From Prochlorococcaceae cyanobacterium jk18x22bins.40 (GTDB lineage Bacteria > Cyanobacteriota > Cyanobacteriia > PCC-6307 > Cyanobiaceae): DNA of 41,891 nt. Positions 8,306-31,640 of the stretch are shown in pieces. The stretch lies in the NCBI GenBank assembly GCA_022826155.1, contig JAJDVL010000036.1, positions 1-41,891 of the forward strand, given 5' to 3'. The stretch's first letter is position 1. The number at the start of each line of letters is the position of its first letter. Made by a program: the position numbers and the translations under genes. The notes beneath the pieces are model-generated. The model did no database searches. It saw only the letters and a list, made by a program, of their open reading frames with translations, and was not told the DNA's origin.

Positions 8306-9673
8306 TCAGGCTTCACCGGTGATGGTGAGTCCCTCCACCCAGACGTGGGGGGAGCGGCCGCTGGGGGTACATTGCGGGTTTCCTTCACAGGCGACGATGT
8401 GTTGCAGGGTGGAGCGGATGTCCCCGGCCACGGTGGCCGCCTCGATGGAGCGTCGCTCCCCCCCGGAGAGCAGCCAACCGTCAAACGGCAGGGAAAAGGA
8501 CCCCTGACTGGCCTTGACGCCGGCATGGAGAGCGGAGAGGGAGTCAATGAGCACCACCCCACTGCCGCTCTCACAACTGAGGGATGAGTCTCCCCGCTGG
8601 CCCTCCACGTCCAGCCATTGGGGACTCAGGGTGACTTTTGCCCCCAGGTTGGCATGACCGGTGGCCACCGAGCCGTCGGCAAAGGCCCTGGCCGTGCCTT
8701 CACTATGGAGGAAATGGCGAAGACGGCCCCCTTCGATGAGGGGCAACCGCCGAGTGGGGGTGCCTTCCCCGTCAAACTCCGGCGCGGCCACGTGACCAGG
8801 ATGGCGCGCATCGTCCGCCACCGTGAGCAGGGGGCTGGCCACCTGGGTCCCCAAGCTGCTGCGCTGGGAGAGGCTGACGCCGTCCAGCACCGCCTGGGCA
8901 TTCACCATGCTGCCAAAGGCCCATAGCAGATCCAGAAAGGCTTCAGGGCTAAAACAGACCGTGTAGACACCGGTGTCGATGGGGGCATAGTCCAGGTGGC
9001 TGATGGTGCGTTCCGTGGCCTCGGCAATGCAGCCCTCCAGATCCAGGGCGTCCACACCGGTGGCCAACCGCACCGCTCCGGCACTGCGGGGTTTGCGGCC
9101 GGCTTCTTCGGCCCGTGGATAGAGCCACAGGGTGGCGCTGGTGGTGCTCTGGCGGCGCAACGCACCAGCACTGTTGATGTACAGCCGCTCCCGTCGGGCC
9201 TGGGCCAGGCCGTTGTAGGGCACGGTGGAGATGGCTGGATGGCTGTTCAGCACTTGCCGTTCGGCATCCAGGAGTCGCTCCAGAAGCGTCTGCATGGGAA
9301 GGGTTGGCCGCCGGGGCTGATGGAGAGGCGTGAGGGGATCCCGGGCCTGGGGGGACAGACGGGGTGGGCTCTGGGCATCACCAAAAGCGCTGGCCTGCTG
9401 GGCGCCCGCCAGGGCTGACGTCAGCCCTGGCGAGGACAGATCGTTGGTGCTGGTGATACCCACCAGACCCTCCCCGTTCCAGACCCGCACCATGGCGGCG
9501 GTGCTCTGGCGAGCCTTGCGTTGCTTGGGCTCACCACGATCCACTTGCACGGACGTGTCGTTGCCGCAGGTGATCCCCAGATCCCAGGTGGCAATCCCCA
9601 TGCGGGAGGCGTCCTCCGTCATGTGTTGCCGCAACACTGCTGGATCCGGAGCCAGGAGAGATGGTGCCGTCAT
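8306..9673 (-). CDS. tldE: TldE/PmbA-family metalloprotease subunit
   Basis: TldE (PmbA) pairs with TldD to form a metalloprotease known in other bacteria for trimming ribosomally made peptides and unfolded peptides; TldE lacks the metal site. The protein from ATG at 9673 is 455 residues, starts MTAPSLLAPDPAVLRQHM and has the family features WDLGITCGNDTSVQVD, NDLSSPGLTSAL and the C-terminal GVVLIDSLSALHAG segment. No HExxxH is present, as expected. The frame is open 40 codons further upstream, but that part overlaps tldD and looks non-coding. It starts four bases after the tldD stop. A 26-base palindrome lies inside it at 9407-9432. Confidence 0.92.
   Translation of the reverse strand: MTAPSLLAPDPAVLRQHMTEDASRMGIATWDLGITCGNDTSVQVDRGEPKQRKARQSTAAMVRVWNGEGLVGITSTNDLSSPGLTSALAGAQQASAFGDAQSPPRLSPQARDPLTPLHQPRRPTLPMQTLLERLLDAERQVLNSHPAISTVPYNGLAQARRERLYINSAGALRRQSTTSATLWLYPRAEEAGRKPRSAGAVRLATGVDALDLEGCIAEATERTISHLDYAPIDTGVYTVCFSPEAFLDLLWAFGSMVNAQAVLDGVSLSQRSSLGTQVASPLLTVADDARHPGHVAAPEFDGEGTPTRRLPLIEGGRLRHFLHSEGTARAFADGSVATGHANLGAKVTLSPQWLDVEGQRGDSSLSCESGSGVVLIDSLSALHAGVKASQGSFSLPFDGWLLSGGERRSIEAATVAGDIRSTLQHIVACEGNPQCTPSGRSPHVWVEGLTITGEA
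9407..9432. repeat. 26-base perfect palindrome inside tldE
   Basis: The half site cgccagggctgac is followed directly by its exact reverse complement with no spacer. It lies within the codons for SPGLTSALAGAQ of tldE. It contains the 8-base core tgacgtca. Such a long gapless palindrome inside a gene is uncommon; it may be an element or a chance result of codon choice. Confidence 0.9.
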
Positions 9674-12467: not shown

Positions 12468-12995
12468 GGGGCCGAGCCATTTCTGCCCGTTGAGGCGCTG
12501 CACCAGGCGCGCCACCAGCAGGGCCAGGGATATGCGCTTTTCGTCGATGAGAAAAGGCTCCAGAAGGGATGCTTCTTGCCCGGACTCCGCCAGGGCAAAG
12601 GTTTTACGGCTGTTGATGTCCGACGTCTCAAAGCAGAGCCAGAACCGGCGTGGACCCGGCAGTTCCCCCTGAATCTGCCAGCACTGCCCCCCCACCACGG
12701 GCATGGGACCTTCCTGCCACTGGAGCGTTGGCGCAGGCCCCCCATGGGCGGCGCAGGCCTGGGCCATGGCCGGGATCAGCAGCTTGGGGACAAACTCGGC
12801 AAAGGGTTGGTCCTCCGGTTGGGGCTTTTTCCTGACCGCTGGCCTGCTTCCCGGCTTGGCCGCTGCCTTGGCCAGCGCCTCTCCACGAGGCGCTGGCGAG
12901 GCTGTTGCGTCTCTGGTCACAGGCCGTGTGGTGATGGATTGTCCTTCACCATAGCGCTCACCAGGTTTCAGCCTGTGGCGGCTGCCAATCAGCAT
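12462..12995 (-). CDS. DUF2996 domain protein
   Basis: I recognise the C-terminal 110 or so residues as DUF2996, a cyanobacterial family of unknown function: [39 protein letters not shown], and the conserved end [28 protein letters not shown]. The first 60 or so residues are a Lys/Pro/Ala-rich linker. The ATG at 12995 makes it overlap the upstream gene by 38 bases; a GTG at 12920 would give a shorter product free of overlap, so the start is uncertain. An 11-base perfect inverted repeat (12871-12897) falls in the linker. It is the last gene of the gyrA-ubiX cluster. Confidence 0.85.
12871..12897. repeat. 11-base inverted repeat in DUF2996 linker
   Basis: gccagcgcctc and gaggcgctggc pair perfectly around tccac. 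It lies in the Ala/Lys-rich linker of the DUF2996 gene. Its right edge, ctggcgagg, is also the right edge of the palindrome at 9407-9432, a weak sign of a shared family. Confidence 0.85.
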
Positions 12996-18363: not shown

Positions 18364-18633
18364 ATGGCTGCTGCATTCCTTCTGATCGAGAGCGTCAGCC
18401 GACTGGTTGCGCTCTATGGATTTCTCCTGATTCTTTACATCCTCAGCAGTTGGATTCCCCAACTCAGACACTCCCGCGTGGGAGAAATCCTGGCCCAGGT
18501 GAGCGAGCCCTATCTAAAGTTGTTCCGGGGGATCATCCCCCTTTTGGGCGGCATTGATTTTTCCCCCATCCTGGCGTTTATTGTGCTGCGCCTGGTTCAG
18601 GGCATCCTGAACCAGGCGCAGGGAGCCCTGTAG
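18364..18633 (+). CDS. YggT family membrane protein
   Basis: This 89-residue protein has two hydrophobic segments and the YggT/Ycf19 marks YILSSWIPQLRHSRVGEIL and VSEPYLKLFRGIIPLLGGIDFSPILAFIVLRLVQGIL. In cyanobacteria and plastids such proteins are linked to thylakoid or nucleoid organisation and haem attachment, but the role of this copy is open. It lies 41 bases after the CAAD gene on the same strand, so a shared transcript of two thylakoid-type membrane proteins is likely. It converges with the hli gene over 45 bases. Confidence 0.9.
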   Translation: MAAAFLLIESVSRLVALYGFLLILYILSSWIPQLRHSRVGEILAQVSEPYLKLFRGIIPLLGGIDFSPILAFIVLRLVQGILNQAQGAL

Positions 18634-28973: not shown

Positions 28974-29444
28974 ATGTCCCGCCGCAATACCGCCGAGAAG
29001 CGTCCTGTGACGCCCGATCCACGTTTCAACAACCGTTTGGCCGCCATGTTGGTGGCCAGGCTCATGAAAAGCGGAAAGAAGTCCACGGCCCAGAGAATCT
29101 TGTATGAAGCCCTGGATCTGGTGGGCGAGCGCACAGGTAATGATCCCGTCGCCCTGTTCGAGACCGCCATCTGCAACATCACCCCCCTTGTGGAAGTGCG
29201 TGCTCGGCGGGTGGGTGGCGCCACCTATCAAGTTCCCATGGAGGTGCGCCCGGAGCGGGGTACAGCCATGGCCTTGCGCTGGCTGGTGAACTACTCCCGA
29301 GCCCGCTCCGGGCGCTCCATGGCCCAGAAGCTGGCAGGGGAGTTGATGGATGCCGCCAATGAAGCCGGCAGTGCCGTCCGCAAGCGGGAAGAAACCCACA
29401 AGATGGCGGAAGCCAACAAAGCCTTTGCCCACTACCGCTACTGA
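28974..29444 (+). CDS. rpsG: 30S ribosomal protein S7
   Basis: S7 starts assembly of the 30S head by binding 16S rRNA; in enteric bacteria it also represses its own operon. The 156-residue protein has the standard [42 protein letters not shown] opening (in pieces) and the [21 protein letters not shown] and [15 protein letters not shown] ends. It follows rpsL by 69 bases. A strong hairpin starts 11 bases after its stop. Confidence 0.98.
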
Positions 29445-29455
29445 CGGACCTGATG

Positions 29456-29497
29456 CTGTCGCCGTCCCCCAAGTCCCGCGATGGGAGACGGCGACAG
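29456..29497 (+). promoter_or_regulatory. Strong hairpin between rpsG and fusA
   Basis: The arms ctgtcgccgtc (29456-29466) and gacggcgacag (29487-29497) are perfectly complementary over 11 bases. The 20-base loop holds tccc/ggga, which could pair further. No T-run follows at once (gcggatgggtttg), so a plain intrinsic terminator is not assured. It lies 11 bases after the rpsG stop and 67 bases before the fusA start. Attenuation, RNase processing or S7 binding are possible roles. Confidence 0.7.
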
Positions 29498-29553
29498 GCG
29501 GATGGGTTTGTCTGTAGAGTTGCCCCCGCTCTCGGTAAAGAAGCACACACTTC

Positions 29554-29558
29554 GGAGG
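29554..29558 (+). promoter_or_regulatory. Ribosome binding site deciding the GTG start of fusA
   Basis: ggagg is six bases before the GTG at 29565. The longer open frame upstream (from ATG 29481) crosses the hairpin region and gives no EF-G-like sequence, so the GTG is the start. Confidence 0.85.
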
Positions 29559-29564
29559 TTTTCC

Positions 29565-31640
<2,076 letters not shown>

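Follow-up and report, generated by a model that had tools for sequence, protein, structure and literature searches.

A hairpin behind rpsG and a candidate fusA promoter directly after it in a Candidatus Synechococcus spongiarum-type genome

The str operon is usually treated as one unit. The genome analysed here is of the Candidatus Synechococcus spongiarum type, its nearest named S7 records including Ca. S. spongiarum LMB bulk15M (L013), and it carries a perfect hairpin in the gap between rpsG and fusA. The question raised by this locus was what an RNA structure at that point could do for the expression of EF-G. A first-pass annotation, made from the letters, had proposed an attenuator, an RNase site or an S7-responsive element that sets the EF-G level apart from S12/S7. 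Overall, one transcription unit probably ends and another begins at this spot, and a role as an S7 sensor is improbable. The window is the whole stretch of 41,891 nucleotides that was analysed, and the features of the locus are as follows.

28974-29444, + strand: rpsG (ribosomal protein S7), the gene upstream of the gap; its TGA stop is 29442-29444
29445-29506, + strand: structured region between the rpsG stop and the T-rich tail, comprising the core hairpin and an outer helix (folding energy; predicted outer stem)
29456-29466, + strand: 5' arm of the core hairpin, CTGTCGCCGTC (perfect complementarity with 29487-29497; covariation)
29487-29497, + strand: 3' arm of the core hairpin, GACGGCGACAG (perfect complementarity with 29456-29466; covariation)
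29507-29514, + strand: TTTGTCTG, a tail with 5 T in 8 bases that follows the stem, runs into the promoter region and may serve as a weak U-tract (genus comparison)
29515-29520, + strand: TAGAGT, candidate -10 box of a fusA promoter, with TG immediately before it at 29513-29514 (conservation in 119 gaps; block found only in this gap in 121 genomes)
29525-29529, + strand: CCCGC, conserved G+C-rich block 3' of the -10 box (family alignment; exact-block search)
29540-29558, + strand: leader end GAAGCACACACTTCGGAGG, with a possible small hairpin and a Shine-Dalgarno-like GGAGG at 29554-29558 (sequence; near-invariant in the genus)
29565-31640, + strand: fusA (EF-G), GTG start (Pfam EF-G domains; start aligned across relatives)

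Structure and conservation of the hairpin

The gap from the rpsG TGA (29442-29444) to the fusA GTG (29565) was 120 bases long. The core hairpin had 11 perfect pairs and a 20-base loop and began 11 bases past the rpsG stop, exactly as first annotated, and a perfect stem of at least 11 pairs with a loop of 3-20 arose in 7 of 20,000 dinucleotide shuffles of the gap. The annotation had added that the loop can itself pair. This holds for the present sequence, where four pairs (29468-29471 with 29482-29485) extend the stem beyond one C.A mismatch, but the two innermost loop pairs failed in seven of eight genus sequences. Between the rpsG stop and the -10 box the sequence folded at -37.5 kcal/mol (z -4.0 against shuffles), which together with the 11 perfect pairs agrees with the stable G+C-rich stem-loop expected of an intrinsic terminator, and in the genus relatives an outer helix was predicted that extends as far as the TTTGTC tail.

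Shuffles of the whole window (n = 60) showed a mean of 0.67 listed stem matches per 42 kb, and three further perfect stems of at least 11 pairs were present in the window at 9407-9432, 12871-12897 and 18586-18621. All three appear to sit in coding sequence, so that the rpsG-fusA hairpin is probably the sole intergenic stem of this length. The stems at 9407-9432 and 12871-12897 showed 11 perfect pairs with short loops inside ORFs with Pfam matches to TldD/PmbA and DUF2996, and that at 18586-18621 was an inverted repeat of 16 perfect pairs, with 4 bases in the loop, at the extreme 3' end of an open frame, which we take from its sequence to be a YggT-like (YggT-family) gene. An Rfam search of the hairpin showed no family above the gathering cut-off; its three matches, all of animal-type miRNA, were far below it (E 0.5-2.5). 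The hairpin sequence had no second place in its own genome, and a relative's hairpin used as query was found at one place apiece in 8 of the 10 genus genomes. A dispersed repeat origin was rejected, as the own-genome and genus searches showed no further copies.

The genus set consisted of 10 genomes. A single homologous match to rpsG was present in 9 of them, and the S7 locus and the rpsG-fusA gap were obtained from all those 9; the gap of L013 was identical to that of genus member G008. The arms varied in sequence within the genus (CTGTCGCCGTC, CTGACGTTG and CTGGCGTTG), and the partner arm changed to match. The covariation test covered 15 pairs in 8 of the 9 distinct genus sequences, G001 (the most divergent member) being omitted from the alignment. 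A total of 79.7% of the cells were paired and 5 of the 15 pairs had changed on both sides (shuffled mean 2.2, with 5 of 500 shuffles as high), while the covariation score was reached by none of 500 shuffles and all slid controls were lower. Paired changes in near relatives, the check named together with the first annotation, were therefore observed. Folding was no better than that of shuffles in three of the nine genus gaps (L004, L010 and L011).

For the wider family, 148 loci were reduced to 139 distinct picocyanobacterial rpsG-fusA gaps by removing repeated identical gaps, and the counts are not independent events since the rows are mutually related. A total of 80 family regions were hand-picked from the listed loci to spread over the genera. 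The rows removed were L012 and L013 (gaps identical to L006 and L010), L055 (without fusA) and L113, L116 and L118 (not rpsG loci). The region before the -10 box folded better than shuffles (p ≤ 0.05) in 46 of 137 gaps, and the control regions reached this level in 3 of 137 (after the -10 box), 6 of 127 (rpsL-rpsG gap) and 0 of 32 (fusA-tuf gap). The excess was larger where the gap was rich in G+C (33 of 74) than where it was rich in A+T (13 of 63), and in other cyanobacteria 12 of the 22 tested gaps that have a clear box also showed it. The best hairpin reached -8 kcal/mol or lower in 84 of 118 gaps, with its 3' end at a median of 6 bases before the -10 T in these 118. This hairpin-distance test left out 19 Prochlorococcus-type gaps (L029-L047) as well as L164 and L174, which had no TANNNT in range; the TANNNT search in the folding and distance tests presupposes T1, A2 and T6, unlike the 119-gap alignment of the -10 box described below.

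In addition, an alignment-free arm-swap test was made on 117 picocyanobacterial gaps, i.e., the hairpin-distance set minus one further gap that was too short, in which the pairing of each left arm region with the right arm region of the same gap was set against its pairing with those of other gaps. Own pairing showed a mean of -13.0 kcal/mol compared to -11.5 kcal/mol (sd 0.25) for permuted pairing, with none of 2000 permutations as low; by species, it was better than the mean swap in 72 of 116. Overall, the hairpin looks like a real RNA structure that has been maintained in evolution.

The conserved block before fusA

The sequence TTTGTCTGTAGAGTTGCCCCCGC stands behind the hairpin, and the block TGTAGAGT-N4-CCCGC lies immediately 3' of it. 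In the 119 aligned gaps, from which the 19 Prochlorococcus-type gaps L029-L047 and L098 were left out, the -10 hexamer showed T1 in 118, A2 in 117, A4 in 115 and T6 in 118. Position 3 (G 101, A 15, C 3) and position 5 (G 104, A 9, C 5, T 1) were variable, and a G preceded the hexamer in 111. It is in such a way that -10 boxes vary, with T1, A2 and T6 nearly fixed and positions 3 and 5 freer, and the hexamer conserved at T1, A2 and T6 agrees with a promoter of the sigma-70 type. No -35 consensus was found at the expected distance in the 119-gap alignment, and a sigma-70 promoter scan for two-hexamer sites found 0 where 1.0 was expected. The feature is therefore termed a -10-like box or promoter candidate and not a consensus sigma-70 promoter.

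A search of 121 genomes with the exact block CTGTAGAGT-N4-CCCGC produced 21 matches, all of them in the rpsG-fusA gap; 20 adjoined known rpsG positions and the last was confirmed separately. The exact block was absent from the other 100 genomes, with near variants in most of those whose gaps were read. The reversed control block had no match in the 121 genomes and a control block with one extra spacer base had 2, on contigs other than the rpsG contigs. A two-mismatch search gave additional stray matches. The pattern GTARART was present in 106 of 118 rpsG-fusA gaps compared to 0 of 118 rpsL-rpsG gaps and 0 of 16 fusA-tuf gaps. For the other cyanobacteria, TATARAA was present in 23 of 42 rpsG-fusA gaps, and thus missing from 19, compared to 0 of 41 in each of the two neighbouring gaps. 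A motif shared with other translation genes was also considered and rejected, as a shorter pattern searched in the 10 genus genomes produced 6 matches, of which 3 were at fusA and 3 elsewhere, seemingly in coding sequence.

Overall, the block looks like a deeply conserved, separate EF-G promoter directly behind the hairpin, and this conserved second promoter candidate is the main and best-supported feature of the gap. It lies beyond the coordinates first annotated (29456-29497), and the annotation had named a second promoter solely among the outcomes that RNA mapping might show. Transcription would probably start close to CCCGC (29525-29529). A literature search showed no usable report of a mapped fusA start or of a cyanobacterial str-operon promoter, and no cyanobacterial fusA start was found in the portions available of PMC5069720, PMC6091082 and PMC5607370.

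Two further observations concern the surroundings of the box. The 19 Prochlorococcus-type gaps (L029-L047) had no clear GTARART box, and in L030-L047, where the box has decayed, an inverted repeat rich in A+T seems to extend across its expected site. At 29521-29534 and in the family gaps, CCCGC, followed by a T run in the relatives, is conserved after the -10 box and might be a control element of the start region.

Terminator, 3' end or other element

The tail behind the stem bears on termination. TTTGTC was invariant in 8 of the 9 distinct genus gaps, the ninth having TTTTTATC, and the tail had 5 T of 8 in eight sequences and 6 of 8 in one, with the T run interrupted. The 11-pair core ends 9 bases before this tail, and the predicted outer stem stops 0-2 bases before it in the nine genus sequences. 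The available part of PMC13289151 takes at least 4 U of 8 directly after the stem as a U-tract. The outer stem and tail in the genus resemble a weak intrinsic terminator. For the family, at least 4 T in the 8 bases after the hairpin were found in 9 of the 84 strong hairpins, and termination as such is doubtful outside the genus because the U-tract is mostly missing there. The terminator scan did not list the hairpin; the loop limit of the scan was 8 and the loop here is 20.

The reading that we favour, with a probability of roughly 0.6, is that the hairpin serves the rpsL-rpsG message as its 3' end or as a weak terminator and abuts an independent fusA promoter, the gap being the junction of two transcription units. 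It builds on the stem, its covariation, its place beside the -10-like box, and the promoter-like conservation of the box together with its absence from the neighbouring gaps. Speaking against it are the three genus gaps that fold no better than shuffles, own pairing ahead of the mean swap in only 72 of 116 species, the scarcity of U-tracts outside the genus, the missing -35 hexamer, and the gaps without the box in the Prochlorococcus type, in L174 and in 19 of 42 other cyanobacteria. RNA from the end of rpsG to about 29506 would fold into a strong stem-loop and would create or shield the 3' terminus of the rpsL-rpsG message, and in the genus, with its 5-of-8 T tail, it would probably act as a weak, leaky intrinsic terminator. 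TAGAGT at 29515-29520, with the tail overlapping the promoter, would start a separate message of fusA and the later genes (tuf and rpsJ), so that EF-G and EF-Tu would be made from their own promoter plus the readthrough that escapes past the hairpin. Since the hairpin typically ends a few bases before the -10 T, messages started at the box would be without it and only rpsL-rpsG transcripts would carry it, and the hairpin would thus belong to the end of the upstream message. The stem with its T tail in the genus, and the scarcity of such tails in the family, favour the wording "weak terminator or 3'-end hairpin abutting the fusA promoter". We lean towards leaky termination in the genus, and both release and protection fit the sequence; transcription may begin at the TAGAGT box, and termination, pausing or 3'-end protection may take place at the hairpin. 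Of the roles first proposed, that of an RNA structure helping to set EF-G apart from S12/S7 probably stands, with an attenuator or 3'-end function plausible, and its S7-responsive part found no support. A more specific proposal, tentative and rather unlikely, is that picocyanobacteria have a dedicated, single-copy EF-G control element made of a hairpin with few or no U behind it, which would terminate upstream transcription in these Rho-less bacteria, and the fusA-only promoter-leader block TGTAGAGT-N4-CCCGC-NTTTT, with a G+C-rich start region that would tune EF-G to the growth state. If true, such an element would be a defined test case for the cyanobacterial termination route.

The hairpin could instead be purely a stabiliser of the 3' end, with the upstream message cleaved or ended at a more distal point by another route and its end then shortened as far as the stem, the polymerase not being released there. 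U-poor sequence behind 75 of the 84 strong hairpins speaks for this, as does the share of U-tract-less ends in Synechococcus elongatus, which the available part of PMC13289151 describes as common and 46% structured. However, the genus stem is directly followed by a tail of 5 or 6 T of 8, and the same part of that paper calls such stems largely absent at U-less ends in one studied cyanobacterium, which leaves pure stabilisation an unlikely account. It is less probable again, and by our estimate quite unlikely, that the hairpin serves RNase processing or pausing within a continuous rpsL-rpsG-fusA-tuf message, with the block as an RNA element and not a promoter. Conservation of the block is strong beyond the hexamer, including CCCGC and the T run, and the exact block occurred nowhere else in 121 genomes, unlike a generic promoter; against this, the hexamer varies as a -10 box does, with T1, A2 and T6 nearly fixed and positions 3 and 5 free, and TATARAA stands in the corresponding gap of other cyanobacteria.

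That the inverted repeat arose by chance, or was copied from a dispersed palindrome, might be suspected from the three other perfect stems of at least 11 pairs in the window and from the relatives whose folding was no better than that of shuffles, but the 7 in 20,000 shuffles, the genus covariation, the arm-swap result and the single place of the hairpin in its own genome and in each of 8 of the 10 genus genomes make this very improbable. The S7-responsive element of the first-pass annotation, by which free S7 would bind the hairpin and lower EF-G synthesis, is hardly credible. The hairpin does adjoin rpsG, and S7 is an autogenous repressor in E. coli in what is available of PMC10931766, which places its action in the rpsL-rpsG gap and cites a 1989 paper that proposed a similar site in the rpsL-rpsG gap of Anacystis nidulans. 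The present hairpin, however, sits after rpsG, its arm and loop sequences were not conserved even within the genus, and messages begun at the -10 box would lack it. Its likeness to the genome's own 16S rRNA was no better than that of shuffles, with 363 of 500 as high for the gap and 157 of 500 for the hairpin in a local alignment that measures sequence likeness only. This comparison was run on a 4484-base locus with flanks and then, giving these counts, on the 1484-base gene alone, and an S7 element was rejected as neither run showed 16S similarity.

Comparison with known systems

The two-unit junction favoured here can be set beside several described systems. The leaky intrinsic terminators of S. 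elongatus PCC 7942, e.g., in the phycocyanin operon, are likewise hairpins between co-directional genes and, in the accessible part of PMC3219970, are described as partial terminators inside operons proposed to cut readthrough and set the product ratio, as is proposed here. Compared to these, a promoter-like box follows at once in the present gap, and the putative U-tract is weak in the genus and absent from most of the family. L- and I-shaped terminators and their stability are described in the available part of PMC7406221, and the part seen of PMC13289151 reports that 22% of S. elongatus units end with canonical terminator features, the others being U-tract-less or diffuse. The I-shaped terminators without a U-tract in the former and the U-less 3' ends in the latter resemble the putative 3' end here in being structured, U-poor and from Rho-less bacteria. 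The genus tail of 5 or 6 T of 8 differs from them and makes the genus hairpin intermediate between the U-tract and U-less classes.

The S7 site of the E. coli str operon, as given in the sections available of PMC10931766, is also an RNA structure in an intercistronic gap adjoining rpsG, whereas the present hairpin lies in the other gap, has no 16S rRNA resemblance and is unconserved in sequence. The internal promoters of the same operon, also in those sections, are closer to the candidate promoter in that an extra promoter makes elongation-factor expression independent of the operon's head. The E. coli promoters lie inside fus and drive tufA, whereas the candidate here lies before fusA.

If the favoured reading is true, the cyanobacterial str operon would be split before fusA and EF-G could be adjusted apart from S12/S7. 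How Rho-less bacteria end transcripts with poor U-tracts is a question raised in the available part of PMC13289151, and the hairpin-promoter junction would be a well-bounded and conserved site for its study. Finally, the 69-base gap of L174 (G088) kept a strong hairpin and had lost the -10-like box, a natural case in which the hairpin is separated from the box.
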